57,746 bases of DNA from assembly GCA_030725745.1 (NCBI GenBank), contig JANRFH010000053.1, forward strand, positions 1 to 57,746, in the 5' to 3' direction. The position numbers and the translations under genes are program-made. Of the stretch, positions 5,337 to 21,476 are shown in pieces. The notes below the pieces were generated by a model. It saw only the letters and a program-made list of their open reading frames with translations. It was not told the DNA's origin and made no database searches. Position 1 is the stretch's first letter. Every line of letters begins with the position of its first letter. This DNA comes from Akkermansiaceae bacterium (GTDB lineage: Bacteria > Verrucomicrobiota > Verrucomicrobiia > Verrucomicrobiales > Akkermansiaceae).

Positions 5337-5350
5337 GTCCATCTGCGGTT
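5337..5350 (-). repeat. Outer inverted repeat, right copy
   Basis: GTCCATCTGCGGTT is an exact reverse complement of 4677-4690. The two ends are 674 bp apart. Confidence 0.65.
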
Positions 5351-5466
5351 AAGAAAATCCTAATGCAGGGTGCCATCATCAATTTGGGGGATAGCGCTTG
5401 TGGGTTAGCTAGGTCATCTTGAAAGGTGCTTGCCATTTCGGCGTAGCCTCAATGCTCACGAATCCC

Positions 5467-7359
5467 ATGAAAGTCCTCAAAATAACCCGCCGAAGCTTCT
5501 GCTCGATCCTGCTCATCGCGATGCACTCCCTGTCGTCCGCGCAGGAGACTCTGCCTCCTCTCGAAGGAAAAGCAGCACCGCAGACCTACGATGAGTTGTG
5601 GGAAGGCTACGATCCGCGCGCCGAGCCGCTGGAGGTAGAGGTGCTGAAAGAGTGGGAGCAGGACGGCGTGGTTCTGAAAGTCCTGCGTTACCGGATCGGC
5701 ATCTTCAAAGGGGAGAAATCCATGATGGCGGCGGTTTACGGCTATCCGAAAGGCGCGAAAAACCTCCCGGGTCTCGTCCAGATCCACGGTGGAGGCCAAT
5801 ACGCCGACGCCAATGCCGTGCTCACCAATGCAAAGCGCGGCTACGCGACGATATCTGTCTCTTGGGCGGGTCGCATCAATGCCCCGGACTACAAGGTAAA
5901 CCCCGATGTCGTGCAGCTCTTCTGGGATGGGAAAACCGAAGACGCGAACTACAAGGTCATCACCGATTGGGGTGCGCTCGATGGCTATCATGCACCTTCC
6001 CGGAATCCCAAAAACCAGTTTCCGAGCCTTCCAGCACCCTCCGATTGGACGCTCGATCCCGTCGTTTCTCCACGAAACAACAGCTGGTTCCTCTGCACGC
6101 TGGGGATGCGCAGGGCGTTGACTTTCTTGGAGCAGCAGCCCGAAGTGGATGGCGAAAAGCTCGGTGTTTACGGGCACTCAATGGGCGGGAAGCTCACGGT
6201 GCTCACTGCGGGTTCCGATTCGCGCGTAAAAGCGGCAGCGCCTTCCTGTGGAGGTATCAGCGACCGGTTTAATGAGGATCCGCTCTTCAATGCGACCCTC
6301 AGCGATCCCGTGTATCTGGAGCGAATCACAGCCCCCACCATGTTCCTCAGCCCCTCGAACGACTTCCACGGACGCATCAATGATCTCCAGCTTGCCGTAA
6401 AGGAAATCAAGACCGACCAATGGCGTGTCACCTGTGCGCCCCACCACAACCACCAGGATACAGCGGAATACGAGGTCGCCACCCAGCTATGGTTCGACCA
6501 GATCCTGAAAGGCACTTTTCTCACCCCGTCTACCCCGGAGACGAAGCTGGAGCTTGCCCAGGAGAACGGTGTCCCCGTGTTTTCCGTGAAGCCCGATGCC
6601 TCGCGGAAGATCCTCGCCGTAGAGATTTACTACACCCAGCAAGGCCAAGTGGATGGTGAAAAGGATAACAGTGACAACACCAAAGCACGCTACTGGCACT
6701 TCGTAAAACCCGTGAAAAACGGCGATGCTTGGACGGGCGAGCTACCTCTCCATTCCGTGGAAAAGCCCCTCTGGGTCTATGCGAATGTCATCTACGCCCT
6801 CGATGAGCCCGTTTCCGGAGCAGGATATTATTACGGAGACTACACCACGGATCGCTTCAATGTTTCCTCGCTCATGTCCATGGTCAGCGTGGCAGAGCTG
6901 GCTATCGCCGAGGTGAAACCGACCGTGCAGGAATCCCTCCTGATCGAATCCTTCGGCGAGGATTGGGAAAAAGGCTGGTTCAGCTACTCACCGAATGACT
7001 GGCCGATCATGACGCACAAGGTTTACGACCCGGTCTGGAAAGCCACTTTAGGTGCTACGCTTTCACTGGAAATCCTCGCCCCTCAGCCGAACAAAATGGC
7101 GATAGGTATCGACGGGTATTTCACCGAAGTCGAATTAGACGGAGGAGACGCATGGCAGAAAATTTCTCTCACCCCCACCGATTTTGAAAATGAGACGGGT
7201 GAGAAACTTGAATCTTGGGAAGGCATCCGCGAGCTTCAACTTGAGGACGAGAAAACGCTCAGGGATAAGAATAGCGATGGGAAAAAGACCTTCGGCGGGA
7301 AATGGAAGGGAGCCTCACCGCAGTTCCGGGATCTGAAGTGGATTGTGAAAGGGGAGTAG
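5467..7359 (+). CDS. Secreted alpha/beta hydrolase (acetyl-xylan-esterase/dienelactone-hydrolase-like)
   Basis: From the ATG at 5467 the protein has 630 residues and a signal peptide (MKVLKITRRSFCSILLIAM, cleavage probably after SLSSA). An alpha/beta-hydrolase domain follows. It has an HGGG oxyanion-type motif near residue 108 and the nucleophile elbow G-H-S238-M-G-G, the pattern of bacterial esterases of the acetyl-xylan-esterase and prolyl-oligopeptidase groups. The stretch after about residue 390 forms a separate C-terminal region that I cannot assign. The most likely role is de-esterification of extracellular polysaccharide; peptidase activity cannot be excluded. In-frame TTG (5419) and ATG (5452) starts exist, but the signal peptide is best formed from 5467. 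Confidence 0.75.
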   Translation: MKVLKITRRSFCSILLIAMHSLSSAQETLPPLEGKAAPQTYDELWEGYDPRAEPLEVEVLKEWEQDGVVLKVLRYRIGIFKGEKSMMAAVYGYPKGAKNLPGLVQIHGGGQYADANAVLTNAKRGYATISVSWAGRINAPDYKVNPDVVQLFWDGKTEDANYKVITDWGALDGYHAPSRNPKNQFPSLPAPSDWTLDPVVSPRNNSWFLCTLGMRRALTFLEQQPEVDGEKLGVYGHSMGGKLTVLTAGSDSRVKAAAPSCGGISDRFNEDPLFNATLSDPVYLERITAPTMFLSPSNDFHGRINDLQLAVKEIKTDQWRVTCAPHHNHQDTAEYEVATQLWFDQILKGTFLTPSTPETKLELAQENGVPVFSVKPDASRKILAVEIYYTQQGQVDGEKDNSDNTKARYWHFVKPVKNGDAWTGELPLHSVEKPLWVYANVIYALDEPVSGAGYYYGDYTTDRFNVSSLMSMVSVAELAIAEVKPTVQESLLIESFGEDWEKGWFSYSPNDWPIMTHKVYDPVWKATLGATLSLEILAPQPNKMAIGIDGYFTEVELDGGDAWQKISLTPTDFENETGEKLESWEGIRELQLEDEKTLRDKNSDGKKTFGGKWKGASPQFRDLKWIVKGE

Positions 7360-7374
7360 GGAGGCAAGAGGCCG

Positions 7375-7394
7375 CATCACGTAAATACGTAATG
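7375..7394 (+). promoter_or_regulatory. Candidate operator, site 1 of a shared 20-bp palindrome
   Basis: CATCACGTAAATACGTAATG, two 8-bp inverted arms separated by AAAT, with one arm mismatch. It lies 96 bp upstream of the ATG of the PEP-CTERM gene. Near-identical sequences occur at 11961 and 18392, each upstream of a transcription unit. Inferred target of the response regulator encoded at 11258-11920. Confidence 0.6.
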
Positions 7395-7489
7395 GGCAGG
7401 TTTTGTGGATCAGTCATCTTCTGGATCGTCTGAGGAAAACTCTGGGCAAAAATCCCCATTCTCTAAACCGACAGAAGACCTCTCGTATT

Positions 7490-9151
7490 ATGAAATACAA
7501 AAAATCCTTCCTGTTTGCAAGTTCCTTGCTGCTTTTGACAAACGCATCCCAAGCACAAACTGTCTGGACGGGTGCCACCAATGGCACATGGGCCACGGGA
7601 ACAACAGGCAACTGGACTGGTGGCACGGGAACTGACTTCACGACTGGAGACGCCGTGCAGTTTAACGAGACCACCGGAGCCATTTTAGCAATCACCGTCG
7701 ATGCGGCAGGTGTCTCGCCGGTATCGGTCAACTTCACCGACGGCGGTGGGGGCACCAAAGCATATACTTTCACCAATGCCTCCGGCGCCGTGGGCATCGC
7801 TGGCGCGGGCTCGGTAACGCTCGATTCCGGCTTTGGTGGTTCCGCGCGGTTCAATTCAGCCAATACATATTCGGGCGGCACGACGCTCAATGCCGGCACA
7901 TTGATCGTTGCAAACAACACCTCTTTAGGAACCGGAACACTCACACTGGACGGCGGCATATTCTTCACAGCCACTGTGAGCATGAACTTGGGGAATGCCG
8001 TGAACGTCACGGGGAACACTAGGATATTCTCAAAAAATGGGAACGCAACCTTATCTGGTGCAATCACCGGTAACGGAACGCTTACTGGCGGTGGTGAAGG
8101 TGCCGCTGCGGCCACTTTCATCATCACCAACAACATGAGTGGGTTTACCGGCACAGTCATTCACAACAACGTGAACGGCCTTAACAACCTGACTTTCAAT
8201 GGTACTGTAAACACAACGGCCAAGTTTCAAACAACCGGTGCCACAGTCTCAAACCGCAACCTACGCTTCAATGCCAACGCAACGATTGGGGAGCTCTCCG
8301 GTACCGGTGGAGTTGTGTTTGGAGACAATACGATTCTAACGATTAACCAAAGCACTAACACAACCTTCGCTGGCGTTTTTCAAGATGTAAACGACACCAC
8401 CAGAAGGCTGGCAATTGTCAAATCTGGGAGCGGCACCTTGACTCTTACAGCTGCTAATCTCCACCGTCAAAGTACCACGGTGACTGGCGGCAAGCTGAGC
8501 GTCGGCCCCACGGGTTCGATCAACAGCACCACCGGCGTTACCATCGGCACTGCCTCGACAGCTGCAGCCGCCGAGTTCAACTACAACTCCTCCACCGCCC
8601 TGACGAAAACAGTTTCGTTCGCTGCGGGCTCCACCGGCGGCATTCTCAGCGGCAGCGGCACGATCAGCAACGCCGTGAACGTCACCGCAGGCAACACCCT
8701 TGCCATCGGCAACAGCGTTGGCCAAATGAATTTCGGCAACACCCTGGCTCTCAACGGAACCACCGTGATGGAAATCGATGGCGATGCGGGTGCGGGAATC
8801 GCAGGCGGGCATGATTTTGCCAATTTGACCGGGGTCGTTGACGCAGGGGTTCTTAGCTATGGTGGCGCGCTCACGCTCGACATTGGCATGGTCTTCGGCA
8901 CCGGTAGCTATACTTGGAATCTGTTCGACTTTGCCAGCGAGACCGGCGATTTCGCCACCATTACCCTTGCTGACCAGTATTCGGGCAGCCTGACCAACGG
9001 CGGTGGTGGAATTTGGGGGCTCACCAGCGGTGACAATATCTGGCAGTTCACCGAGTCCACCGGTGTCCTCGGTCTGACCGTCGTCCCCGAGCCATCCGCC
9101 GCTCTTCTCGGATGCATCGGCATGCTGTTCCTGCTCCGCCGCCGCCGCTAG
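7490..9151 (+). CDS. PEP-CTERM surface protein with autotransporter-type beta-strand repeats
   Basis: From the ATG at 7490 the protein has 553 residues. It has a signal peptide (MKYKKSFLFASSLLLLTNASQA), a low-complexity Gly/Thr/Asn-rich beta-helical body, and a C-terminal sorting tail VVPEPSAALLGCIGMLFLLRRRR: the PEP motif, a membrane helix and an arginine cluster. The body contains units such as YSGGTTLNAGTLIVANNTSLGTGTLTL, typical of autotransporter-associated beta-strand repeats. Proteins of this type are processed by an exosortase and displayed or released at the surface; no exosortase is in the window. A 20-bp palindrome precedes it and a strong terminator follows, so it is probably a single-gene unit. 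The longer in-frame start at 7403 would spoil the signal peptide. Confidence 0.88.
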   Translation: MKYKKSFLFASSLLLLTNASQAQTVWTGATNGTWATGTTGNWTGGTGTDFTTGDAVQFNETTGAILAITVDAAGVSPVSVNFTDGGGGTKAYTFTNASGAVGIAGAGSVTLDSGFGGSARFNSANTYSGGTTLNAGTLIVANNTSLGTGTLTLDGGIFFTATVSMNLGNAVNVTGNTRIFSKNGNATLSGAITGNGTLTGGGEGAAAATFIITNNMSGFTGTVIHNNVNGLNNLTFNGTVNTTAKFQTTGATVSNRNLRFNANATIGELSGTGGVVFGDNTILTINQSTNTTFAGVFQDVNDTTRRLAIVKSGSGTLTLTAANLHRQSTTVTGGKLSVGPTGSINSTTGVTIGTASTAAAAEFNYNSSTALTKTVSFAAGSTGGILSGSGTISNAVNVTAGNTLAIGNSVGQMNFGNTLALNGTTVMEIDGDAGAGIAGGHDFANLTGVVDAGVLSYGGALTLDIGMVFGTGSYTWNLFDFASETGDFATITLADQYSGSLTNGGGGIWGLTSGDNIWQFTESTGVLGLTVVPEPSAALLGCIGMLFLLRRRR

Positions 9152-9174
9152 GCCAGAAGATCTTAGGTTTTCCC

Positions 9175-9212
9175 GCACTCTGGTTTCCGTAGGAGCCAGA
9201 GTGCTTTTGTTT
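9175..9212 (+). terminator. Rho-independent terminator of the PEP-CTERM gene
   Basis: GCACTCTGG (9175-9183) pairs perfectly with CCAGAGTGC (9196-9204) across a 12-base loop, followed by TTTTGTTT. It separates the PEP-CTERM gene from the histidine kinase operon. Confidence 0.88.
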
Positions 9213-9275
9213 ACAGTGATCACCGCCTAGATTTTCTTCTGGAGCTTTGGAGATTGCGTTTGAAGATCGTAACCC

Positions 9276-11261
9276 ATGCTTAGTTCCTCCAATAACGCCT
9301 TTCGGAAGTTCCTGAAGGCGTTTTTGTTTCTGCGGGTTCTTTCCGTTTTCGCCTGCGCCGGGGAGTCTTCCGGATTCTCCGAGTCATCGCTCTCGGAGTT
9401 GGAGAACCGCCGCGATATGATCCTTGCGGAGCTCGATACCTTAGCGAATTTGAGTCTCCGGGGCGGAATGGGAGCGGTGGGTTTCCGCACCCATGCTCGT
9501 GACCATGCGGATGATCCAATATGGATGGAGATCGATCTGGGGAATGAGGAACTTATCGATCAAATCGTCCTAGTGCCGATGTTGTGGCGGGGTTTGACGG
9601 GCGATAAGGTGGCTCCAGATGCTTTCCCGGCAGGCTTCCGGGTGCTGGTGGGAGATGAAAAGGACAAGGAGGGGAAAATCGTGGGTGAGTTTTCGCGTGA
9701 AGCTGGCTTCAAGCCCGGCGTCGCACCCGTCATCGTGAATTTCCCGGAAACCTCGGCATCCTGGGTGCGGATCGAGACCACGGAACTATCGACACTCACC
9801 GAGACGAATAGGCATTTGTTGCAGCTTTCGGAGGTTTTCGTCTTTAGTGGAGAAAGGAATGTGGCCTTGCGCAAGCCGGTGAGCTGTTTCCCCGGATTTC
9901 CGAATTATGTGTCGAGTCCATTTGATCCACGTTTCCTCGTCGATGAGTCCGTTCCATTTGCCATGGATGCGGCAGGAGATCAGGGGGAACGGGCTTATTT
10001 GAGCAATATTGGAGATCATCCGGATCTCCTCATTGATCTGGGAGCTTCCATGGCGTTTTCGGGAATCCGTTTCCATGCGGTTGAGCAACAGAACACGGTG
10101 CCACAGTCCTACGCGGGGGATTTGGGCATTCCACGGCGCTTTCGGGTCCTGGGAGCAGACGAGAAGGATTTTTCAGATGTCCGGGTGTTGCTGGATTATG
10201 AATGGGAGACGATTTACGACATCGGGCCCATCATGGAATGGCAGTTTCCCGATGTTACCTGCCGCTATGTGAAGATCGAGGATGTGGAACCAAACCCGGC
10301 GATCGGCGTTACCATGAGTGTTTCGAGGATTGGCTTTTCCGAGATCGAACTCTTGGATCAGGGGCAAAACATCGCCAAAGGAAAAAGGGCGGAGTTGTCT
10401 GAAAATTTGCGCCCGGGGCGTAGTCCGTTAATGCTCACCGATGGATACAATGCGTTTGGGGAAATCCTCAGCTTGCGCACATGGATGAACCAGCTCGCGC
10501 GCCGGCATGCCCTGCAAGTGGAGCTCGATGAATTGGATACAGTGATTGCCCAACGGTTTGAGAGCCAGACGCAGATTCTCACCTGGAGCATACGAGCCGT
10601 TTTTCTGCTGCTGGGGTTGATCGTTGTGTTGTTCGTGTTGAGCAGGATCCTACAGAAAAACAACGAAGCGAAAATACGCCGCCGTATCGCGGCGAACCTC
10701 CATGACGAGCTGGGCGCGAACCTCCACGCGATCGGCATGCTGGGAGATCTCGCGAAGGACTCGTTCGACCATCGTGAGCAGCTTGAGGATACGATGGATC
10801 GGATACGTTCGCTCACAGAGAGAACCGGCAAGGCGGCACGGAACTGCGCCCACATGGTTCAGGCGGAGGGCGTTTGCGAGGATCTGCTCGAGGAAATGCG
10901 CCGCGATGCCGACCGCTTGCTCTGCGATCTTCAGCATGAAATGAGCATCGAGGGAGAGGAAATTCTCGCCCGGTTGAAACGCAGGACAAAGATCGATCTC
11001 TACCTTTTCTACAAGGAATGCCTGGTAAATATCATCCGTCATTCCGGCGCCACATTCGTGTCCACGAAGCTTGCGGCCACTTCAGGATCGGTCGTGCTTG
11101 AGGTTGCCGATAACGGTGTCGGCGTGCTCGCAGAGGTTCCCGCATCATTGTCGAGAAGAGCGCGGCTGCTGGGAGCCAAAGCCCAGATCTTGCATCCGGA
11201 TGGTGGCGGCACTACCATTTTGCTGACTGTGAGATTGAAAAGGTTCGGAATATTTCTATGA
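9276..11261 (+). CDS. Sensor histidine kinase with two discoidin-like extracellular domains
   Basis: This 661-residue membrane sensor has a signal peptide or first helix (about 10-28). Two beta-sandwich segments follow that resemble F5/8-type-C (discoidin/galactose-binding) domains: about 60-195, with WMEIDLGNEELIDQIVLVP, and about 196-365, with PDLLIDLGASMAFSGIRFHAV. A coiled region and a transmembrane helix (about 434-457, WSIRAVFLLLGLIVVLFVL) come next. The cytoplasmic kinase is of the HisKA_3 (NarX/DesK) type: phospho-acceptor H476 in RRIAANLHDELG, N-box N585 (ECLVNIIRHSG) and D612 in ADNGVG. Its stop codon overlaps the regulator start in ATGA, so the two are translationally coupled. A carbohydrate ligand is plausible from the domain type but is inference. 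Confidence 0.85.
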   Translation: MLSSSNNAFRKFLKAFLFLRVLSVFACAGESSGFSESSLSELENRRDMILAELDTLANLSLRGGMGAVGFRTHARDHADDPIWMEIDLGNEELIDQIVLVPMLWRGLTGDKVAPDAFPAGFRVLVGDEKDKEGKIVGEFSREAGFKPGVAPVIVNFPETSASWVRIETTELSTLTETNRHLLQLSEVFVFSGERNVALRKPVSCFPGFPNYVSSPFDPRFLVDESVPFAMDAAGDQGERAYLSNIGDHPDLLIDLGASMAFSGIRFHAVEQQNTVPQSYAGDLGIPRRFRVLGADEKDFSDVRVLLDYEWETIYDIGPIMEWQFPDVTCRYVKIEDVEPNPAIGVTMSVSRIGFSEIELLDQGQNIAKGKRAELSENLRPGRSPLMLTDGYNAFGEILSLRTWMNQLARRHALQVELDELDTVIAQRFESQTQILTWSIRAVFLLLGLIVVLFVLSRILQKNNEAKIRRRIAANLHDELGANLHAIGMLGDLAKDSFDHREQLEDTMDRIRSLTERTGKAARNCAHMVQAEGVCEDLLEEMRRDADRLLCDLQHEMSIEGEEILARLKRRTKIDLYLFYKECLVNIIRHSGATFVSTKLAATSGSVVLEVADNGVGVLAEVPASLSRRARLLGAKAQILHPDGGGTTILLTVRLKRFGIFL

Positions 11262-11920
11262 AAAAGCCCATTAGAGTCATGCTGGTGGAGGACAGCCGCG
11301 ACTACCGCGAGGTCATCGAGCTCGCGCTGATGCGAGACCCGGGATTGGAGTTGATCAGTCAATTCGGCACCGCGGAGATCGCCCTGCGGGAAATTCAAAA
11401 CGCCGATCCATCCGATCTTCCTGACCTTCTGCTCCTCGATCTCCAGCTGCCCGGTATGGGAGGCTTGGACTCACTACCTTGGTTTCGGAAATACATGCCG
11501 GAGGTGCCGGTGATGGTTCTCACCCAGTCCGAAGCGGAAGCGGATGTCATGAAGGCGATCAGTAATGGAGCCGCAGGCTATTTGCTGAAATCCTCCACCG
11601 TGGAGCAACTCAAGGATGCGATACGAATGGTCGCCAACGGTGGGGTATCTCTCGATTCCGGAATTGCCAAATACGTTTTGGATGCATTCAAGGGCAAGAA
11701 ATCCCAGTCAACCGAAGAGGATGGAAGCCTGACCGCCCGCGAAATGGAAGTGCTAGCTCTTGTCGCGGAAGGTTTCGTGAAAAAGGAAATCTGCAAGAAA
11801 CTCAATATCAGCTACAACACCGTGGATATCCACGTGCGGCATATTTACGAGAAACTGGAGGTTCAGAACGCACCCGCTGCGGTGAGCAAGGCCTACCGGA
11901 CAGGCTTGTTCCCCTCATAG
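11258..11920 (+). CDS. LuxR/NarL-type response regulator
   Basis: This 220-residue cytoplasmic DNA-binding regulator is the partner of the upstream kinase. The receiver domain (residues 5-125) has the acidic pair E11/D12, the phospho-acceptor D61 in LLLLDLQLPGMGG, T89 in the VLTQ block and K111. The C-terminal GerE-type helix-turn-helix (about 158-203) reads LTAREMEVLALVAEGF through SYNTVDIHVRHIYEKL, close to the family consensus. It overlaps the kinase gene by 4 bp. NarL-type regulators bind dyad sites as dimers, and a 20-bp dyad lies 40 bp beyond its stop codon, with two more in the window, so these are its likely targets. Confidence 0.93.
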   Translation: MKKPIRVMLVEDSRDYREVIELALMRDPGLELISQFGTAEIALREIQNADPSDLPDLLLLDLQLPGMGGLDSLPWFRKYMPEVPVMVLTQSEAEADVMKAISNGAAGYLLKSSTVEQLKDAIRMVANGGVSLDSGIAKYVLDAFKGKKSQSTEEDGSLTAREMEVLALVAEGFVKKEICKKLNISYNTVDIHVRHIYEKLEVQNAPAAVSKAYRTGLFPS

Positions 11921-11960
11921 GGTGTAGTCGGAGGCTTGGGTGGTATTTGGGCGGATGCAC

Positions 11961-11980
11961 GTTTACGTAAATACGTGATG
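11961..11980 (+). promoter_or_regulatory. Candidate operator, site 2 of a shared 20-bp palindrome
   Basis: GTTTACGTAAATACGTGATG. The core ACGTAAATACGT and the full right arm match site 1, while the outer left arm is diverged. It lies directly upstream of a sigma70-like promoter with its centre about 52 bp before the predicted transcription start, a position typical of activators. Confidence 0.6.
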
Positions 11981-11986
11981 AAATCT

Positions 11987-12016
11987 TTGTTTCAATGGGT
12001 GATATGTCTGTATAAT
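11987..12016 (+). promoter_or_regulatory. Sigma70-type promoter of the cassette A operon
   Basis: TTGTTT (11987-11992), an 18-bp spacer and a perfect TATAAT (12011-12016), about 50 bp before the GTG start at 12067. The palindrome ends 6 bp before the -35 element. Confidence 0.55.
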
Positions 12017-12066
12017 GTAAAACAAATCCTGTTGAAATTGAGCGGAAAAACCTAAATAAAACCATC

Positions 12067-15000
12067 GTGAATTCCCTTAAAAAATCCAAAGATTTGCTCA
12101 GTTCGAACACGGATTTCAGGCCAGGATTTGCCCTCATAGTGACACTCACTTTGATGGTGCTGTTGTTGGTGCTGATAATGGGACTGCTCTCTCTGTCCTC
12201 GGTCGCCTTGCGCTCAGAAAGCCACAATAAACCGATGCTCGAGGCGCGTCAGAATGCCATTCTCGCGATGCAGCTCGCCATCGGGCAGCTCCAGTCACTC
12301 TCCGGGCAGGATACCCGCGTCACCGCAAGCGCCCAACTCACCGATGTGACCAATCCTGCCGTTACAGGTGTGTGGAGGAGCTGGGAGGGCACGGATCACG
12401 AATCCACCGGCAGGCCGATCGCCCCGGTTTACAACTCGAAGAAGCTTGCAGGTGATGCTTCAGAAGAAATCGCAGCTGCCGGGGATGGTCGTTTCCTCGG
12501 CTGGCTCACCTCCACCGCTCTGAATAAAACACCAGATATCGCGACGGTTCCCGGTGTCTCGTTCACCGCTACAGACGGCTACATTCCCCTAGTTTCAGAA
12601 GGCAGTGTGATCATCCCTTCGCCAAAGCCGGCGAACTACACTGAGCCAATGATCTACATGGAACCCACCATGGTGAACAATGATACGGGAGCCTTCGCAT
12701 GGTGGACGAGTGGTGAAAACCAGAAGGCGCGTATTAGCAAGCCGTATGAACCGGGCAACGATGATGCAGCAGGCTGGGCTAAACAGATGAAAGGCCACTC
12801 CGTGGCAGATCCCGAACCGTTCCGGCTGGAGAGCTTGCTCGATACGCCCGAGGTCACAGATAAGATCATTTCCGCCTCCCAAGCAGACATCGTGGCTTCA
12901 TCTTCGGATCCAAAAGTATTCGCAGAGTTTTTTCATGATTTTTCCACTTCAGCGACCGGACTTCTCACCAACACGGCTACCGGAGGTTGGCGCAAGGATC
13001 TCTCACTTCTTACGGAAAATTGGGACACGCTGCCCACCTCCGACCTGCCGCTCTTCCGGTTGAAGCCCGATGAGGACATTCTGTTCACTAGACCCGTCAG
13101 CGGTGGCAACTACCAACCGGAACGCTCCCTCGTCTATCCTTGGTCTGACTACCAAGCCCGCAACACCAGTAAGATTGGTGAAGTGAGCCCGATCTGCAGT
13201 TGGGCAAGTCTTGCCAACTTCTCCACTCTCTATAAATCCATGACGGGAAATGGATCTGCCATCGATCTCCAGTATTCCCATACCGACGGAAACAACTCTC
13301 TGGAAAACTACAACTACCACCACAAGGTCCGGATTTTACCCATCATCGCGCGGATCCAATGGGTCTATTCACATTGGGCGGGTCCACCTCCAACCGGATC
13401 TGCCGCCGGGACGCTTGAGCCCAGATTACTGGTGACTCCCGTTTTCACGCTTTGGAATCCCTACAATGTCCGCATCTCATACAACACCGGTTTGGCAACT
13501 CAGGAAACCCTGACATTCTGGCAGCGGGCTTGCTTGCCCAATGCGCTCCGCTACAATATCAACGGTGTTCAAAACACGAAATATCACAGCGTCCTCTCCT
13601 CCAAAAATCACGACGAACTGACGTATTCTGAAACGAGGGGCAACCCATGGAAAAATGCCCTGATTTACAGCATCAAGGAGTCTTTTGTTCTGGAACCTGG
13701 CCAAACGATCCTCTTCAGCCCGGTGGCAACTCCCGCCGTCCCTAGCGTGGAACTGGAACTCCAGCCAGGGTATCGCCCTAGCGGCGGGCATTATTTCGCC
13801 TTGCGGAGCGATACGGGTTCAACGCCCCCGGCTTCCGCAGCATCCTCCATCTCGGTCGATGCGAAATTCGATTCCGAAGGCCTTGGTGGCGAGGCTGGCC
13901 TCTATCTCGATGTGCTCACCATGCCAGGCACCGGTGGCAATTTCCGTAAACGCACACTCGCCTATCGCATGGTGGTGGATCCGACGATCGCAGCGGAAAT
14001 GTATCCGCCTATCACTGGGCTTGCCTCCACCACATTGGGAGAGGCCTCATCCCAACCACAACCATTCCTGACCACCATCCTCGGCCCCCGAACCGCCAGT
14101 AACACCTTCCTCCCGGCAAAGGGCTTCGTTCAAACCAGCCCTCTTTCCAACTATGCCGAAATGGGCAAAAATGCATTTTCCCAAGGCCGCTATCCAGGAG
14201 ATAGCCACCCCGTCAACTCACTCTTTGACTACAGCTTCAGGGCACTCAGCGCGGTCTCCGACTTCACTCCGAACAATGGCCCCAACAACAGCGGATGCAT
14301 CATCACCGGATTCCAGTCGGCCACGGGACTCCATCGCTGCGTGCTCAGTGAACTCCCCAACCGCCCCATCCAGTCGATCCCGGAACTGACCAGCTGGGAC
14401 AGCCGCCTGGATAACCCGAAACCGCCGTTCACCTTGAACTCGATTGCCAATAGCGATGCATCACCACTTTTCCCCAAGAATGCTGTCTGGAACCCCCTCA
14501 ATGCTGCCCAAGGCAACCGGGATCTCCAGAATGACGAGTCCTATTGCATGAACCACCTCCTCTTTGATGACTGGTTCTTCTCATCCATTGCGCCGAACTC
14601 CTCAAATTTCGGAGCACCCTCCGGAGGCGCGTCCTTGAAGAAGACCTACAGTGATTTTCTTACCGGTAACGATCCATTGCCAAACAGAGCCTACAAATCG
14701 ATCGCCTCGGATACCGCTCTGGCAGTGGCTTCCACATCCAACATAGATACCCTCTATCAGAAGCAAATTGACACCGGTACCTCTTGGCGAACCATCGCCT
14801 CGCGGCTTGAGGTGGAGGGAATGTTCAATGTGAATTCCACATCGGTGCAGGCATGGCGCGCCCTGCTCGGCCATGCCCGTGGTCAGAAAGTTCCTTACTT
14901 CGACTCATCCTTCAGCCCGGCTCTTTCCGGTGAAACGGACTACGCATTCACCCGTTTCTCCGTATCGGGCGATGTCGAGGCGAAATCCAGCACATCCATT

Positions 15001-15621
15001 TCCGGCACCTTCCAGGGAGCGGCTGAGTTCGCGGGATATCGCACGCTGGATGATGCCATCCTTACGCGGCTCGCAGAGGAAATCGTCAATCAAGTACGCC
15101 TTCGCGGCCCCTTCCTTTCACTCTCGGAGTTCGTCAACCGGCAGCTCTCTGACGTCGACACCCGTGCTATTGGCGGTGCGATCCAGGTTGCTCTCGACAC
15201 ACTCGCTGAGGACAGCTCCACCAATCTCTACTCAGAGCTCCAAACACCGGGCACTCTGGCGACGGCCAATCCACCAAGCCCTGCCCTTGCCGCCTACGAA
15301 TTTCCCAAGGCCGCCGTGGGCTACAACGCCTATGGCTTGCCCGGATGGACACGCCAAGCAGACATTCTCCGCCCGATCGCCCCCGTCCTCTCTGCTCGCG
15401 ACGACACTTTCACCATCCGTGCCTACGGTGATGCCCGTAATGCTGAAGGAGACGTCACCGCAACTGCCTTTTGCGAAGCCGTCGTCCGCCGAACCCGCAA
15501 TTATGTCGACTCTGCGGATGCTGCGGATATTACAACGCTACCCACCACATCTATTAACAAAGCTTTTGGTCGCCGCTATGAAATCGTGTCCTTTCGATGG
15601 CTTTCCTCATCCGAAATTTGA
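12067..15621 (+). CDS. Verru_Chthon cassette protein A-like, prepilin-type N-terminus
   Basis: This 1184-residue protein begins with a type IV prepilin-like segment: a basic leader, then PGFALIVTLTLMVLLLVLIMGLL with likely cleavage after the glycine. LSSVALRSESHNKPMLEARQNAILAMQLAIGQLQ comes next, closely resembling the start of Verru_Chthon cassette protein A (TIGR02600). The remainder is a long secreted body without a recognisable enzyme motif. The cassette's function is unknown; the N-terminus suggests passage through or assembly with a pilus or type II secretion-like apparatus. The usual partners B, C and D are not in the window. The start codon is GTG. It follows the response regulator, with the palindrome and a good promoter in the gap, and probably forms an operon with the next gene. 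Confidence 0.75.
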   Translation: MNSLKKSKDLLSSNTDFRPGFALIVTLTLMVLLLVLIMGLLSLSSVALRSESHNKPMLEARQNAILAMQLAIGQLQSLSGQDTRVTASAQLTDVTNPAVTGVWRSWEGTDHESTGRPIAPVYNSKKLAGDASEEIAAAGDGRFLGWLTSTALNKTPDIATVPGVSFTATDGYIPLVSEGSVIIPSPKPANYTEPMIYMEPTMVNNDTGAFAWWTSGENQKARISKPYEPGNDDAAGWAKQMKGHSVADPEPFRLESLLDTPEVTDKIISASQADIVASSSDPKVFAEFFHDFSTSATGLLTNTATGGWRKDLSLLTENWDTLPTSDLPLFRLKPDEDILFTRPVSGGNYQPERSLVYPWSDYQARNTSKIGEVSPICSWASLANFSTLYKSMTGNGSAIDLQYSHTDGNNSLENYNYHHKVRILPIIARIQWVYSHWAGPPPTGSAAGTLEPRLLVTPVFTLWNPYNVRISYNTGLATQETLTFWQRACLPNALRYNINGVQNTKYHSVLSSKNHDELTYSETRGNPWKNALIYSIKESFVLEPGQTILFSPVATPAVPSVELELQPGYRPSGGHYFALRSDTGSTPPASAASSISVDAKFDSEGLGGEAGLYLDVLTMPGTGGNFRKRTLAYRMVVDPTIAAEMYPPITGLASTTLGEASSQPQPFLTTILGPRTASNTFLPAKGFVQTSPLSNYAEMGKNAFSQGRYPGDSHPVNSLFDYSFRALSAVSDFTPNNGPNNSGCIITGFQSATGLHRCVLSELPNRPIQSIPELTSWDSRLDNPKPPFTLNSIANSDASPLFPKNAVWNPLNAAQGNRDLQNDESYCMNHLLFDDWFFSSIAPNSSNFGAPSGGASLKKTYSDFLTGNDPLPNRAYKSIASDTALAVASTSNIDTLYQKQIDTGTSWRTIASRLEVEGMFNVNSTSVQAWRALLGHARGQKVPYFDSSFSPALSGETDYAFTRFSVSGDVEAKSSTSISGTFQGAAEFAGYRTLDDAILTRLAEEIVNQVRLRGPFLSLSEFVNRQLSDVDTRAIGGAIQVALDTLAEDSSTNLYSELQTPGTLATANPPSPALAAYEFPKAAVGYNAYGLPGWTRQADILRPIAPVLSARDDTFTIRAYGDARNAEGDVTATAFCEAVVRRTRNYVDSADAADITTLPTTSINKAFGRRYEIVSFRWLSSSEI

Positions 15622-15658
15622 CAACCCGCATTGAGCGCCCCTATTGCCCTTACCAACC

Positions 15659-16363
15659 ATGCGCACACTCTCCGTTCTTCTTGTATTACTACTATTCGCT
15701 GCGTCCGCTTTCGCTGAAAAAGCGGCCACCCGAACTTGCCGTATCCTGTTTCTCGAGGCACCTGCATCCGCTCCGAAAAAGTTGTTTCTTTTTGACGGGG
15801 CAACTTCGCAGGAAGTCGAGTTACCCAGCATGAACTTCTCTCCGGCCTATGAGATCGCTGGTGGAAGGACCGGTGTCTCGCTGCTACCAGCGCCAGTTGC
15901 TAAACCAGAGGAAATCCCTGCCGGTGCTCCAATGGTCGCAATTCCGGAATCTTTCTCGGATTGTTATCTGATTCTTAGCAGCGATCCCGCCAACAAGATC
16001 GCACCTGTGCGTATTCAATTGGTCGATGCCTCAGTTGGTAAGTTCAAAAACGGCCAAATGCTGTGGTTCAACCTCACGAAAAACATGATCGTAGGCCAGA
16101 TCGGCACACGAGCACTGCGGCTGTCTCCCAGCGCGAAAAAAATCACTGGTGCACCCGCATCATCTGCCAGTTCCTATGCGGCGAAGATCGGCTATGTAAT
16201 TCCCGGCGAAAAAACAGTCCGTCCAATTTTTGAAACGCAGTGGCAGCATAACCCGCGCACACGCATGGTGATGTTTATATTCGAGCAGACCCCAAATGCC
16301 GCGCCACGTGTCATGGGCTTTTCGGATTTCCGGTTGAAGGAAAAGGACGCTTCACAGCCATGA
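15659..16363 (+). CDS. Secreted protein of unknown function next to cassette A
   Basis: The protein has 234 residues from the ATG at 15659, with a clear signal peptide (MRTLSVLLVLLLFAASAFA). I do not recognise a family. The mature part looks like two beta-rich segments and has no catalytic motif or cysteine pair of note. It begins 37 bp after the cassette A gene, so the two are probably co-transcribed. A truncated paralogue follows immediately: IPESFSDCYLILSSDPANKIAPVRI aligns with IPETWSRVILLFLPDPSNKLFPARV encoded downstream. This suggests a small gene family tied to cassette A loci. Confidence 0.7.
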   Translation: MRTLSVLLVLLLFAASAFAEKAATRTCRILFLEAPASAPKKLFLFDGATSQEVELPSMNFSPAYEIAGGRTGVSLLPAPVAKPEEIPAGAPMVAIPESFSDCYLILSSDPANKIAPVRIQLVDASVGKFKNGQMLWFNLTKNMIVGQIGTRALRLSPSAKKITGAPASSASSYAAKIGYVIPGEKTVRPIFETQWQHNPRTRMVMFIFEQTPNAAPRVMGFSDFRLKEKDASQP

Positions 16364-16816
16364 AGAATACCAAATCACGAGCTGATCAAAATCCCGGAAA
16401 CTTGGTCACGCGTGATCCTTTTGTTTTTGCCGGATCCCTCGAACAAGCTCTTCCCCGCCCGTGTGTTACCGGTCAATGCCTCTACGGATAAGCTCCCGGC
16501 AGGTCACACCCTGTTCTACAATTTTACGGAAGCCACGGTTTACGGAAAGTTCGGTAACATCGTCGTCACCGTGAAGCCGGGTAAGTCCACAAACATGAAG
16601 CCGCCCATCGATGAAAGCGGCAGCTACCCGGTGGAGATCGATTGTCGGATACCCGGTGAGGAAAAAACGACCGCGCTAGCACGCTCATCTTGGCACCACA
16701 GCCCGGATAGCCGCCAGATCGTTTTCATCGTCCCTCCACCGCAAGGCAAGCTCCCTCGCCTTTGGAGCCTCAACGATACCCCACCGCAGGCATCCTCGCC
16801 CAATGCTCAGCCGTAG
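16364..16816 (+). pseudogene. 5'-truncated tandem copy of the preceding secreted protein
   Basis: Open reading continues from just after an in-frame TGA (16361-16363) and encodes ELIKIPETWSRVILLFLPDP and onward. This aligns with the C-terminal 60 percent of the 15659-16363 product, through IPGEEKTTALARSSWHHSPDSRQIVFIV (compare IPGEKTVRPIFETQWQHNPRTRMVMFIF). The signal peptide and roughly the first 85-90 residues are missing. An ATG at 16360 overlaps the upstream stop codon but is in another frame and leads only to a short unrelated peptide. Translation could start at GTG 16412, giving 134 residues without a signal peptide. An unequal-recombination or deletion remnant is the simplest reading. 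Confidence 0.7.
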
Positions 16817-16854
16817 GATGGCGCGGGAGTTTGGTAAATAGAACCATATTACAA

Positions 16855-18339
16855 ATGAAGAACACTCTAATAACATGCTACCTGTTGCTCGGTTTCGCGA
16901 CATCATCTTACGCGAAACCGGATCAGAGCAATGAGGACTACGCCCCCTCCGCGACACCCGAGAGCTCGGTGGTGGCGAGCCTGCCGATCGATCCCAACGG
17001 AATCAATGTTCTGGCGGGTAACCTCGGCAAAGCAAGTCCGGGTATTAAAAATGCGTTCATGAATCACATGAACCTCTGGATGGCGATGCCGGCAGAGGGC
17101 ACATACGAGATCGAGTGGATGCTGAAAGTTCCGGAGGATGGGGTCTATGGCATCGATGCATTGGTGAAGGGCAAGGGCACCCGACTTATTGTAAGCTCCA
17201 ATGGCGAGCAGAAGCAGGCTGTTGTGGAAGCAAAGGACTGGGATCGCGTTTCTTTCGGGACGCTCGCGCTAAAGGCGGGTGAAAACAAGCTGCGCCTGGT
17301 GATCGAGGCAACCAAGGGATTTTCCTTCGATGCGTTGGAACTAGTGCAACCGGCAGTCAAAGCGGATCTGCTTAAAGATGCGCTGGCGATGCGGAAGCAG
17401 CCGGATTGGTTTGTAAATGCAGGATACGGAGTGATGTTCCAATGGACGAACCGTGCGACGCCACCCAAGGGAGGTATCAAGCCGTGGGAAGAGAAGGTCA
17501 ACGACTTCAAGCTCGATGAATTCGTCGACATGGTGGAGTCCACGGGCGCGGCCTACGTGCTGTGGTCGGTCACATGGGGGGAGCAATATATCTCTGCACC
17601 CCTCAAGTCCTTGGATGCGATCATCGCCGGGCGCACAGCCGAGCGGGATCTTCTCGGGGAGATGGCGGATGCCTTGGACAAGCGCGGCATCAAACTCATT
17701 TTCTACTACCACTACGGTTATGACTGCAACCACTCCATCGATAAAGATTGGATGGAGGCATCAGGCGGCTACAAGGCCGACAAGACGGAGCTGTATGAAA
17801 ACTGGATGGCGATCATTTCTGAAATGGGAGAGCGCTACGGCGACAAGCTTCATGGCTGGTGGTTCGATGGTGGGCAGCGTTATTACAACTGCCATTTCGA
17901 TAACACACCAGGTGATCAGGGGATTCTCTCCGCGCCGTTCAAGGATCTGACACTTGCGGCAAAGAGCGGCAATCCCGAGCGCGTCGTCGCCTATAACTCA
18001 TGGATCAAGCCGCGCCTGACTGAGTATCAGGACTACTACGGTGGCGAAGGAGCACATGTCTCAGGTGGTCTGAAAAACGGGATGTTCCCAAGCGGCCCCC
18101 AAGAAGGTTTATTGGGACATGGATGCTTCATTTTTGAAAGTAAATGGGGACACATCGAGAAAAACTCCACCATCGCCAAGCCGAGGTATGATCTGAAGAA
18201 ACTTACGGCAATGATTCAGAAGGCGCAGAAAGAGAAGTTCCCGCTCTCGATCAATCTGGAGATGTATGAGGATGGTTCGGTGTCGCCGGATTCGGTGGCG
18301 CTTTTGAAGCAACTTCGGAAGGAGATTCGCGTGAAATAG
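16855..18339 (+). CDS. Secreted GH29-like alpha-L-fucosidase with N-terminal beta-sandwich
   Basis: This protein has 494 residues from the ATG at 16855, with a signal peptide (MKNTLITCYLLLGFATSSYA). Residues about 35-165 form a beta-sandwich resembling a CBM35/galactose-binding module (EGTYEIEWMLKVPEDGVYGIDALV). The catalytic barrel resembles GH29, retaining alpha-L-fucosidases that release terminal fucose. The probable nucleophile is D338 in HGWWFDGG, matching the GH29 W-x-D block, and WYVNAGYG-type and FYYHYGYDCNH segments line the barrel. It diverges from the classical fucosidase at 35200 and may prefer another substrate. It has its own upstream gap and sits before the operator-bearing gap of the main operon. 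An in-frame start at 16762 lies inside the upstream pseudogene and is unlikely. Confidence 0.72.
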   Translation: MKNTLITCYLLLGFATSSYAKPDQSNEDYAPSATPESSVVASLPIDPNGINVLAGNLGKASPGIKNAFMNHMNLWMAMPAEGTYEIEWMLKVPEDGVYGIDALVKGKGTRLIVSSNGEQKQAVVEAKDWDRVSFGTLALKAGENKLRLVIEATKGFSFDALELVQPAVKADLLKDALAMRKQPDWFVNAGYGVMFQWTNRATPPKGGIKPWEEKVNDFKLDEFVDMVESTGAAYVLWSVTWGEQYISAPLKSLDAIIAGRTAERDLLGEMADALDKRGIKLIFYYHYGYDCNHSIDKDWMEASGGYKADKTELYENWMAIISEMGERYGDKLHGWWFDGGQRYYNCHFDNTPGDQGILSAPFKDLTLAAKSGNPERVVAYNSWIKPRLTEYQDYYGGEGAHVSGGLKNGMFPSGPQEGLLGHGCFIFESKWGHIEKNSTIAKPRYDLKKLTAMIQKAQKEKFPLSINLEMYEDGSVSPDSVALLKQLRKEIRVK

Positions 18340-18391
18340 ATTTCCTCGAAGGAGACCCGATTACTGCAGGAGTGGGAATGTTGAGCAGGTT

Positions 18392-18411
18392 CATCACGTG
18401 AATGCGTGATG
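18392..18411 (+). promoter_or_regulatory. Candidate operator, site 3 of a shared 20-bp palindrome
   Basis: CATCACGTGAATGCGTGATG. Both outer arms match the consensus, with GAAT as the spacer. It lies 153 bp upstream of the first gene of the glycan-degradation operon, and a TACAAT (18434-18439) 22 bp beyond it could be the -10 element. No good -35 hexamer is visible, as expected for an activator-dependent promoter. Confidence 0.6.
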
Positions 18412-18563
18412 GTGGATTTTCATTATTGGAAGATACAATCTGACCTCCGTTAAAATGCGGCCACTTTAGATAGAAGTCCTTGTGACTAACGTAATCTGAG
18501 GGCGCAAGAATTGTAGCTCTCCCACAAAAATTTAAGACGAATAACAGAAGCCAAAAACGACTG

Positions 18564-21476
18564 ATGATGAATATTCCACTGAAGATGACGATAGCTTGCT
18601 TAATGGCAGGCTTTAGCTCCGCCCATGCGGCGGATATTTTTGTGAACCCAAGCGGTAATGATGCCAATGCGGGCACTGCTGAGGCGCCGCTTGGGTCTCT
18701 TGCTGCGGCAAAGTCAGCTGCAGCTGGCTTTGCTGGGAAAGAGGCTGTGACGGTGCATGTCGCGGATGGAATTTATTACTTGCCGGAAACCCTAGTCTTT
18801 ACTCCGGGGGACTCAGGCACGGAAGAATTTCCCGTTGTCTATCAATCTGTGAGCGAGGGTGGAGCCGTGCTCAGTGGTGGATCTGAGCTCAAACTTTCGT
18901 GGGAGCCGCACAAGGATGGTATTTTTAAGGCGCAAACACCCGTCGGTCTGAGTATTGACCAACTCTTCATTGATGGGCGGATGCAACGGATGGCTCGCTA
19001 TCCGAACTTTGATCCAGCGAAGAAAGCCGAGCCTTACCAAGGATATGCGGCCGATGCGGTTTCTAAAGAGCGCGCTGCCCTATGGGCTGATCCAGCTGGA
19101 GGCTACATCCACGCGCTGCATCGTGGTCGCTGGGGCGGCTATCACTATCTCATCAACGGCAAGAATGATGAGGGCGAGTTGGTTTTCGAGGGCGGTTGGC
19201 AAAACAACCGCAAAACGCCGATGCATGAGGAGTATCGCATGGTGGAGAATATCTTCGAAGAGCTGGATGCTGAGAATGAGTGGTATCACAATGCCAAGAC
19301 CAACACGCTGTATTACAAGCCGGTTGCCGGCACTGACATCAACTTGGTGAAGGTAGAAGTGGTGCGCTTGCGGCACTTGGTGGAATTTCAAGGCTCAGAA
19401 AAACAACCCGTGAAGCACATCACGCTGAAGGGTTTTGTCGTGCGCCATACTGCTCGCACGTTCATGGACGTGAAAGAGCAGCTCTTGCGCTCCGATTGGG
19501 CGATTTATCGTGGCGGTGCTTACCTGCTTACTGGCACGGAAGATATCCAGATCTTGGATACGGAGTTCGATCAAGTCGGAGGTAACGCAATTTTCGTAAA
19601 CAACTACAACCGCGATGTGTTGGTGAAAGGTTGCCACATTCACGATGCTGGCGCGAGTGGCGTTTGCTTCGTCGGTGATCCGGATGCAGTGCGTGATCCG
19701 CTGTTTGAATATGGCGAGAAGAACGATCTATCGAAGATCGACCGAACAGTGGGGCCGAAGACAAACAATTACCCATCGGACTCCGCCGTAGAGGATTGCT
19801 TGATTCACGGCATCGGGCGCGTTGAGCGTCAGCCAGCAGGTGTACAGATTTCCATGGCGCAAGGCATTGAGATACGCGACACCTCCATCTACGATACCGC
19901 ACGTGCGGGTATTAATATCAGTGAAGGCACCTGGGGTGGTCACTTGATCGAGCGTGTCGATGTTTTCGATACGGTTCTGGAAACGCATGACCATGGTTCT
20001 TTCAATTCATGGGGTCGTGACCGCTATTGGCGCTCGGATCACCTGACGGCAACACAAGAGGCTGTCGATGAGGATCCTCAATTGCCTTATCTTGATGCTA
20101 TGGAAACAACCATCATCCGAGACAGCCGTTGGCGTTGTGACCATGGCTGGGACATCGATCTGGATGACGGTTCGACCAACTATGACCTCTACAACAATCT
20201 CATGTTGGCTGGTGGACTGAAACTTCGTGAAGGATTTCGCCGTCATGCATGGAACAACATTACCGTGAACAACGGTTTTCACCCCCACGTTTGGTTCCAA
20301 CACAGCAAGGATCAGGTTTATAGCAACATCTTCATGCAGTCCCACCGTGCGGCTCGTATGGGCGAGCCTTACACCAAGGAGACGAAGGTAGATGGAAACT
20401 TCTATGGTGCTGAAAAAGCTTCCATCATGGGGCTGTCCGCAAAATTGGGATGGGATGAAAACTCGGTCTTTGGTGATCCTATGTTTGTCGATCCAGCCAA
20501 TGGTGATTTCCGTGTGAAGGATGGTTCGCCAGCCCTTGAAGTCGGCTTTAAGAATTTTCCGATGGATCAGTTCGGTGTGAAAAAACCTTCGCTCAAGGCG
20601 ATTGCTCGCACGCCAGTGATCCCCGAACTTAAGGGCGCTGAGAGCAAACCTGGCAAGCAAACCAAAACTGAGCCGCATAGTTCAGTATGGATGAGTGCCA
20701 ACTTGCGTGAACTGTCTGGCGTGGAGTTCTCCGCTTACGGCGTCAGCGAGGAATCAGGCGGTGTCGCTCTATCGAATCTTCCTGCTGGCAGTACTTTGGA
20801 AAAAGCCGGGCTCAAGAAGGATGACTTGATCCAAGGAGTGAACGGAAAAGCGGTGAAGAGCATTGCTGAATTCTTCCGTGTGCTTACCGAAGATCCATCC
20901 GAAGCTCTCAAGCTGACGGTGGTTCGCGATCAGAAGAATATCGAGGTGACGGTCGCAAGGACATCCATTGTCGAGATGGATTCGGCGTCATCCACGAGCG
21001 ATTTTAAGAAACTGCCAGTGCCCAAGGCTTCAGGTCTGACCGTCATCGCCAGTTCGAAAACCGGGAACGAGCCACTGAGTATATTGACCGACGGCAAACT
21101 CGCGGAAAATTTCGGCCCCGTCTTTGGCAACACGATCCACAACGGTTCTTACAAAATGGATCTAGGTGCCGTGAAGCCGGTCACGGCAGTTACTAGCTGG
21201 TCGTATAATATGGGGAACTCCCGTGGCGCGCAGAAGCTGACAGTATACGCAAGTAACTCCACGACTGATCCGGGTTGGAATCTGAAAAATTTCATCGTGC
21301 TTGGTAGTATCGACACAGGTGCCGCTAAGGCAAAATACACCGCTGCTTCAGTGCGAGCGATCAAAGGCCAAAACCTTGGAAACTACCGCTGGATTGTCTG
21401 GGCAGTTTCACCTGTCACTGAAACCGGAGGCGGAGAGAATACCGCCTTCCAAGAGTTTGTGGTAGAAACCAAATAA
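18564..21476 (+). CDS. Secreted GH141-like beta-helix glycosidase with PDZ and C-terminal discoidin-like module
   Basis: This 970-residue exported protein has a signal peptide MMNIPLKMTIACLMAGFSSAHA. Residues about 23-690 form a right-handed parallel beta-helix of the GH141 type, a family that includes alpha-L-fucosidases and xylanases: ADIFVNPSGNDANAGT at the start, then VRHTARTFMDVKE, GGNAIFVNN, GCHIHDAGASGVCF and NNLMLAGGLKLREGFRRHAWNN. Residues about 709-800 form a PDZ domain (GVALSNLPAGSTLEKAGLKKDDLIQGVNGK). Residues about 823-970 form a galactose-binding-like module (GSYKMDLGAVKPVTAVTSW, WIVWAVSP) shared with the next gene's product. It is the first gene of a tightly spaced operon and is preceded by the 20-bp palindrome. 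A close paralogue lies at 26122. Substrate is inferred from the locus. Confidence 0.8.
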   Translation: MMNIPLKMTIACLMAGFSSAHAADIFVNPSGNDANAGTAEAPLGSLAAAKSAAAGFAGKEAVTVHVADGIYYLPETLVFTPGDSGTEEFPVVYQSVSEGGAVLSGGSELKLSWEPHKDGIFKAQTPVGLSIDQLFIDGRMQRMARYPNFDPAKKAEPYQGYAADAVSKERAALWADPAGGYIHALHRGRWGGYHYLINGKNDEGELVFEGGWQNNRKTPMHEEYRMVENIFEELDAENEWYHNAKTNTLYYKPVAGTDINLVKVEVVRLRHLVEFQGSEKQPVKHITLKGFVVRHTARTFMDVKEQLLRSDWAIYRGGAYLLTGTEDIQILDTEFDQVGGNAIFVNNYNRDVLVKGCHIHDAGASGVCFVGDPDAVRDPLFEYGEKNDLSKIDRTVGPKTNNYPSDSAVEDCLIHGIGRVERQPAGVQISMAQGIEIRDTSIYDTARAGINISEGTWGGHLIERVDVFDTVLETHDHGSFNSWGRDRYWRSDHLTATQEAVDEDPQLPYLDAMETTIIRDSRWRCDHGWDIDLDDGSTNYDLYNNLMLAGGLKLREGFRRHAWNNITVNNGFHPHVWFQHSKDQVYSNIFMQSHRAARMGEPYTKETKVDGNFYGAEKASIMGLSAKLGWDENSVFGDPMFVDPANGDFRVKDGSPALEVGFKNFPMDQFGVKKPSLKAIARTPVIPELKGAESKPGKQTKTEPHSSVWMSANLRELSGVEFSAYGVSEESGGVALSNLPAGSTLEKAGLKKDDLIQGVNGKAVKSIAEFFRVLTEDPSEALKLTVVRDQKNIEVTVARTSIVEMDSASSTSDFKKLPVPKASGLTVIASSKTGNEPLSILTDGKLAENFGPVFGNTIHNGSYKMDLGAVKPVTAVTSWSYNMGNSRGAQKLTVYASNSTTDPGWNLKNFIVLGSIDTGAAKAKYTAASVRAIKGQNLGNYRWIVWAVSPVTETGGGENTAFQEFVVETK

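Follow-up and report, generated by a model that had tools for sequence, protein, structure and literature searches.

INTRODUCTION

The closest described relatives of the system reported here are NarL/FixJ two-component systems with DesK-like kinases (DesK-DesR, VraS-VraR, LiaS-LiaR, and NarX-NarL), and NarL-type regulators with dyad operators are a long-known kind. Our locus lies on a 57,746-nucleotide stretch of DNA from an Akkermansiaceae bacterium (contig JANRFH010000053.1 of assembly GCA_030725745.1), here called the window. It encodes a sensor histidine kinase and a NarL-type response regulator and carries three copies of a 20-bp dyad, the putative operator. As in the DesK-like systems, the kinase core is near those of DesK and VraS and the regulator joins a receiver to a GerE domain. 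Unlike them, the present family has a predicted tandem discoidin/CBM32-like sensor, comprises many paralogs, each of which seems to have a 20-bp operator to itself, and is associated with genes for PEP-CTERM proteins, sulfatases, and fucosidases. We estimate a probability of about 0.82 that the adjacent regulator binds the dyads and activates glycan and surface genes from a class II position, with its paralogs acting on dyads of their own.

To our knowledge, little is known about how the numerous sulfatase, fucosidase, and PEP-CTERM genes of the Verrucomicrobiota and their kin are switched on. Polysaccharide loci of Bacteroidetes resemble the present system in having a glycan-sensing regulator, there of the hybrid two-component type, beside the degradation genes; in those regulators everything is fused into one protein, and the sensor and DNA-binding domains are of other kinds. 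PrsK/PrsR-type regulators of PEP-CTERM genes carry a sigma-54 activation ATPase domain; the window regulator is unlike them in that no such domain is among the four Pfam matches of its 220 amino acids. We take Desulfovibrio vulgaris DVUA0057 to be of the sigma-54 type as well. This response regulator bound five predicted PEP-CTERM targets (PMC3333781). Unlike that of ours, its gene lies on a plasmid, within an operon of the exopolysaccharide type, and the accessible part of the report mentions no glycan-degradation genes (PMC3333781). In Pontiella agarivorans, kinases with PF07730 and PF02518 domains and regulators with PF00072 domains lie near glycoside hydrolase (GH), sulfatase, and TonB genes, and substrate sensing has been suggested for them (PMC10880615). 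Those pairs share with ours the position beside GH and sulfatase genes; the accessible text of that paper describes no operator, targets, or specificity. In the literature searched, which lay mostly outside subscription journals, we found neither this operator family nor its code described.

RESULTS

Three dyads flank genes of a two-component system

The window is the whole of contig C53 in a 3.42-Mb draft genome of 57 contigs that is 95% complete. Its three putative operators are intergenic, perfect or near-perfect inverted repeats on the forward strand: site 1 (CATCACGTAAATACGTAATG, positions 7375 to 7394), site 2 (GTTTACGTAAATACGTGATG, 11961 to 11980), and site 3 (CATCACGTGAATGCGTGATG, 18392 to 18411), the left half of site 2 being poor, with three mismatches. 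The initial annotation had placed all three correctly. It gave their distances to the PEP-CTERM gene, the cassette A-like gene, and the glycan operon that follow them as 96, 87, and 153 bp; recounted from site end to start codon, these are 95, 86, and 152 bp, each one less. A consensus scan of the window at up to three mismatches yielded five strand-matches, all at sites 1 to 3, which is above the chance expectation of 0.23 (standard deviation, 0.53; maximum, 3; 100 shuffles). The next-best places in the window have at least four mismatches to CATCACGTNNNNACGTGATG, so the claim that no further good copy exists there holds.

The proposed dyad binder is encoded at positions 11258 to 11920 on the forward strand, ending 40 bp ahead of site 2. 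Its assignment as a NarL/LuxR-type regulator is borne out by matches to a receiver domain (PF00072, 74 bits) and a GerE helix-turn-helix (PF00196, 63.5 bits), and the phospho-acceptor Asp, D61, is invariant in 12 aligned regulators, the window's included. Its recognition helix reads SYNTVDIH and contains Asp190.

Dyad sequence covaries with the recognition helix

An unsupervised palindromic expectation-maximization search of 37 kinase upstream regions returned YAYCC...GGRTR with a log-likelihood of 108.9, compared with 45.7 to 67.0 for 12 control samples drawn from the upstream regions of other genes at the same loci. Eight of the 12 controls converged on a YAYCCY-type motif, presumably because those genes are targets too. 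The palindrome count alone was rejected as weak (13 of 37 kinase upstreams versus 51 of 208 others at a 4-bp spacer), and since counts were about as high at 6-, 8-, and 10-bp spacers, sequence-based tests were used instead.

The first of these concerned Asp following TV in the helix and G at position 7 of the dyad (G7). A dyad was found in 21 of 61 loci, and G7 accompanied Asp in 10 of 10 cases and other residues in 0 of 11 (Fisher P = 2.8e-6); in this test the score was neutral at position 7, the zone and outer weights were fixed after the first kinase-upstream dyads had been seen, making it partly post hoc, the window's own sites fall outside the zone, and the count omits Asp loci that lack a dyad in it. 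When scoring was relaxed, dyads above a 5% null threshold were present in 22 of 72 kinase upstreams (3.6 expected), and 19 of these 22 lay at -72 to -135. After one locus without a kinase call was dropped, operator similarity in the remaining 21 correlated with recognition-helix similarity (r = 0.59) and still did so once the remainder of the protein was controlled for (partial Mantel, 0.43; P = 0.0002). Both halves of the dyad carried G7 in 6 of 6 Asp loci versus 0 of 15 others. A curated table of 45 regulator-operator pairs gave 19 of 19 versus 0 of 26, but its sites were partly chosen after looking, so it is not a test. Dyads also differ among the loci of a single genome, tracking the helix of the local regulator; recurrent pairs of helix and dyad are TVVTH with TATCCTCA, TVAYH with TACCCTCT, TVANH with TATGGG, TVAIH with TATAGG, and TV(N/G)NH with YATGAC.

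Predictions were fixed before 38 further loci were fetched, from which nine duplicate regulators (>95% identical) and two without a kinase upstream were removed. Among the 27 loci tested, 19 had a dyad over threshold (1.4 expected), 13 of these 19 at -45 to -135. G7 was present, as the Asp rule predicts, in 4 of 6 Asp loci, versus 0 of 13 others (Fisher P = 0.004). Under a second rule, the Asn of TVxNH helices would call for a G at position 4; no such regulator was above threshold among the new loci.

Promoter geometry points to a class II activator position

At 46 sites chosen blind to the -10 box, many of which are related by orthology or paralogy, TANNNT was present 20 to 22 nucleotides (nt) 3' of the dyad in 27, compared with a mean of 3.5 and a maximum of 11 in 2,000 shuffles tested over distances of 19 to 22. 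The same spacing was found for 12 of the 19 dyads at the new loci. Given the predicted start points, the dyad center would lie near -43, the position of a class II activator. Site 3 fits the family spacing, with a predicted -10 box TACAAT at positions 18434 to 18439 (forward strand), and so does a site elsewhere in the genome, C5:32618. For site 2, the initial annotation had proposed an activator position centered about 52 bp upstream of a start point. A TATAAT at positions 12011 to 12016 on the same strand is indeed a possible -10 box of the cassette A-like gene, but it lies 30 nt 3' of site 2, nine bases beyond the commonest spacing in the family.

Further sites and paralogous systems in the same genome

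A genome-wide search, as the initial annotation had suggested, was made with the pattern CATCACGTNNNTRCGTGATG at up to three mismatches and gave 11 forward and 12 reverse matches, compared with 2 and 2 for the reversed pattern. These matches fall in 18 places, three of them in the window. By a simple gene caller, 11 of the other 15 are in coding sequence and four lie between genes. Two of the four are poor palindromes; the other two, C5:32618 and C43:56266, are good dyads 5' of PEP-CTERM genes, the latter 25 bp from the start codon. The search added two convincing sites outside the window. The regulon probably extends to these two PEP-CTERM genes. A motif common to PEP-CTERM genes in general was rejected: among the 34 over the model cut-off, the window form was found within three mismatches in only 3 of the fetched upstreams, a lower bound given that three upstreams (L059, L065, and L069) are cut by contig ends and some start predictions are poor.

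Separately, a perfect dyad, TATTACGTCATCACGTAATA (TATTACGTGATGACGTAATA), precedes another PEP-CTERM gene on contig C49 (L158, G000:C49:29000-38000, positions 4165 to 4184; upstream L052). It has four mismatches to the window form and carries G7, and may be a further target of the regulator. Contig C49 also bears five overlapping dyads, 14 bp apart, with unit TGATCAGTAAACAG, before a gene that by eye resembles thymidylate kinase (L158, 1138 to 1213; L179), and the TGATCAGTGGACAG form of this unit recurs on contig C15 (L175).

The genome encodes seven regulators of the subfamily at E <= 1e-40, each following a kinase gene. No dyad was found at the paralog on C24, and only weak ones at those on C2, C3, and C7. 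On C57, a kinase 27% identical to the window kinase over nearly its full length, sensor included, adjoins a NarL-type regulator, and the dyad CCTCAC-TAATTTTY-GTGAGG and a near copy occur at three places in a PEP-CTERM cluster. A dyad of this type occurs once on C15, 95 bp 5' of a cassette A-like paralog, and TATCACCCATCTGGGTGATA lies on C33 between a PEP-CTERM gene and a sulfatase-type gene. These dyads suggest that each local regulator has its own.

The dyad of this second system (helix SIHTADTH; L154, G000:C57:200000-219999; L173), which sits at a tandem PEP-CTERM cluster, is CCTCACTAATTTTYGTGAGG; in one copy the first bases are CATCAC. The cluster also contains near-identical perfect inverted repeats CGCCAACC..GGTTGGCG (L154, 6065, 8355, 12364, and 15344), which are followed by T-runs in both upstreams read (L067 and L078) and are probably terminators. 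On C15 (L153, G000:C15:76000-90000), two tandem cassette A-like genes (2124 to 5795 and 6959 to 10519) have near-identical N termini; a dyad was seen before the second only.

The family in other genomes

Of 79 genomes searched for the regulator at E <= 1e-40, our own included, 20 matched. Another genome of the genus, G034, carries a regulator identical to that of locus L213. A GTDB scan returned at least 579 loci. Among the best 80, which were kept, those at 46 to 61% identity (L180 to L228) come from Opitutales, other Opitutia, Pontiellaceae, Akkermansiaceae, Pelagicoccus, Coraliomargarita, Rubritalea, and three planctomycete genera, Rhodopirellula (L189 and L208), Aporhodopirellula, and Mariniblastus. 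By sequence similarity, the kinase and NarL-type regulator are a family spread across Verrucomicrobiota, Pontiellaceae, and Planctomycetes. In Aporhodopirellula (L227), a perfect dyad, TGTCATCCGTTCGGATGACA, lies 5' of the kinase gene, with outer bases unlike the Verrucomicrobiota form.

The exact form CATCACGTNNNNACGTGATG had matches within two mismatches in 37 of the 79 genomes (own included). The 29 loci returned from other genomes were 23 coding and 6 intergenic, one of the six preceding a surface-type gene (genome G024); a good site in genome G040 was also on this list. With most matches coding, the exact form was rejected as a genus-wide regulon, and geometry was examined instead. The initial annotation had suggested looking for the motif in related genomes: conservation of the exact CATCACGT form does not extend to most relatives, but the dyad geometry recurs before kinase genes, as in TATCCTGTGTTTACAGGATG and similar dyads directly 5' of the kinase gene across the family. 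In G040, whose regulator is 55% identical to ours, a dyad comes first, followed by a large gene encoding glycosidase-like and Ig-type domains, the kinase and regulator genes, a second dyad, and genes of the esterase, alpha-L-fucosidase, and sulfatase types. Both dyads of that locus (TATCATGTGTTCACAGGATA and CATCCTGTGTTCACAGGATA) have diverged from the window form, and on another contig CATCATGTGTTCACATGATG and TATCCTGTGTTCACAGGATG lie 5' of two surface-type genes. A separate locus (L287) in genome G250, which has ten paralogs, carries three identical perfect dyads, TATAGGTATTTTTACCTATA, at -4279, -3287, and -2138 from the regulator start, beside one kinase-regulator pair.

The kinase and its predicted sensor

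The kinase gene occupies positions 9276 to 11261 on the forward strand. The protein matches PF07730 (29.9 bits; cut-off, 24) and is predicted to consist of a tandem discoidin/CBM32-like sensor spanning roughly residues 38 to 398, a membrane helix, HisKA_3, and an ATPase domain; its phospho-acceptor His, H476, is invariant in 43 sequences. In structural comparisons, the core was nearest to DesK and VraS: DesK chains gave Z scores of 16.5, but in long alignments with a root mean square deviation (rmsd) of about 16, and the ATPase domain matched that of VraS with Z of 16.3 at 2.1 Å. Searching with the whole kinase model listed kinase-domain matches only, and the sensor was therefore modeled alone. 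Its sequence scores 23.6 bits against discoidin PF00754, under the cut-off of 28.2, as does that of the C57 paralog (23.8 bits). The separate model (pLDDT, 85.9) has a discoidin-type jelly-roll fold and matches neuropilin b1b2 (E = 2.8e-7) and fucolectin (E = 2.4e-6). Single CBM32-type chains gave a TM score of about 0.6 normalized by their length; two-domain superpositions were poor (rmsd of about 16). From this model we predict tandem discoidin/CBM32-like domains, and fold and gene context together make a glycan the likely signal. In Akkermansia muciniphila, some PEP-CTERM proteins were detected only on glucose and others only on mucin (PMC4960237), a pattern that is in line with glycan control but is not evidence for the present system.

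Genes downstream of the three sites

All genes described here are on the forward strand. Site 1 precedes a PEP-CTERM surface protein gene (7490 to 9151; PEP-CTERM score, 17.2 bits versus a cut-off of 16) with passenger-type repeats (PF12951; PATR / TIGR02601). Between it and the kinase gene, at 9175 to 9204, a hairpin GCACTCTGG...CCAGAGTGC followed by TTTT, read by eye and not from a terminator scan, is a likely terminator. Read-through is therefore disfavored, and site 1 is probably not the driver of the kinase gene. Site 2 precedes a gene with a GTG start codon (12067 to 15621) that had been annotated as cassette A. N-terminal similarity to TIGR02600 (Verru_Chthon cassette protein A) is present, but at 29.1 bits, confined to residues 20 to 97, it falls far under the curated cut-off of 332.3, and we call the protein cassette A-like. 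An alpha-L-fucosidase-like protein (PF01120, 40.9 bits) is encoded at 16762 to 18339. Downstream of site 3, genes for a beta-helix/PDZ enzyme, sulfatases, an esterase, a second beta-helix enzyme, and an alpha-L-fucosidase (18564 to 36630) form a probable operon, as judged from gene spacing. The lead enzyme had been assigned to GH141; the beta-helix/PDZ enzyme has no match to any GH141 model at E = 0.001.

DISCUSSION

A regulon joining surface structures and sulfated-glycan degradation under the adjacent regulator, as the initial annotation had proposed, is supported at the sequence level by the layout in G040, the dyads upstream of kinase genes, and the covariation with the helix. In the mechanism that we infer, which includes binding, activation, the signal, and a lack of cross-talk, a transmembrane kinase would sense a glycan through two lectin-like periplasmic domains; given the target genes, that glycan is probably fucose-containing and sulfated. 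The kinase would phosphorylate the NarL-type regulator. A dimer of the regulator would use the recognition helix to bind the 20-bp dyad CATCACGT-N4-ACGTGATG, and in each half-site the G-C pair at position 7 would be read by Asp190. Typical promoters of the family would carry the dyad where a -35 box would otherwise stand, at about -53 to -34, and RNA polymerase would be recruited by the dimer bound there. Targets in the window would be the PEP-CTERM surface protein, the pilin-like cassette, and the sulfatase/fucosidase operon, together with the two PEP-CTERM genes elsewhere. Paralogous kinase-regulator pairs would share this geometry but differ in the inner bases of their dyads, which would let several pairs run side by side without cross-talk.

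Several observations weigh against this reading, in addition to the post hoc zone and weights, the uncounted Asp loci, and the out-of-zone window sites of the first Asp test. Above-threshold dyads were absent from the kinase upstream at 50 of 72 loci, 17 of which have Asp regulators. The window's own kinase gene has no upstream dyad (best score, 1.8) and is parted from site 1 by the likely terminator. Two of the six Asp loci in the preset test broke the Asp rule; their dyads are rich in A+T and lie at +3 and -273, beyond the -45 to -135 interval, and by the preset rule both loci were counted as failures. The C57 regulator has Asp in its helix, yet the nearby palindromes lack G7. On a receiver-domain tree the Asp trait switches five times, with only one independent switch on well-supported branches, so shared ancestry explains part of the covariation, and many loci and sites are orthologs of one another. 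Sites 1 and 2 have no -10 box at the usual spacing, site 1 having no clear one at all, and the C43 site is too close to its start codon for class II activation. Finally, genome G024 (81% complete) has a site and no regulator match at E <= 1e-40.

The alternative that survives best, though we consider it unlikely, is that the regulator binds the dyads and represses, or acts differently at each site. NarL-type regulators are able to repress, and class II spacing is lacking at sites 1 and 2 and on C43, but activation is favored by the -10 boxes at activator spacing in 27 of 46 family sites and 12 of 19 new-locus sites, and by the fit of site 3 and C5:32618. Distinctly less probable is a global PEP-CTERM regulator that binds the dyads, the neighboring two-component system being incidental. 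Such a regulator would account for the G024 site and for the three of five good genomic copies that precede PEP-CTERM genes. It sits poorly with the rarity of the window form among PEP-CTERM genes (3 of 34 within three mismatches in the fetched stretches), with dyads that vary within one genome following the local regulator's helix, and with the many loci that have a dyad before the kinase gene itself. We give very little weight to the idea that the palindromes are RNA hairpins, terminators, or repeat elements: they are indeed perfect or near-perfect intergenic inverted repeats, but no terminator-type T-run directly follows any of the three window sites, a -10 box stands at a fixed distance 3' in 27 of 46 family sites, and the sequence covaries with a protein helix. 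Chance similarity, which the three mismatches in site 2 might suggest, is already refuted by the counts (0.23 matches expected) and by the layout conserved in G040.

Taking activation by the adjacent regulator as the preferred reading, we lean somewhat, and with much less assurance, toward a wider picture in which the PVC group operates a switchboard, with a discoidin-sensor kinase and a NarL-type regulator for each glycan or surface locus. The channels would be insulated by a few helix residues that determine which inner bases the 20-bp class II operator shared by all of them has. If this is true, the sequence of a regulator would lead to a predicted operator and from there to its regulon. 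With operators predictable, regulons could be read directly from genomes and orphan loci assigned to sensors, and the paralogs would offer a natural series for residue-by-residue study of a switch in DNA-binding specificity.

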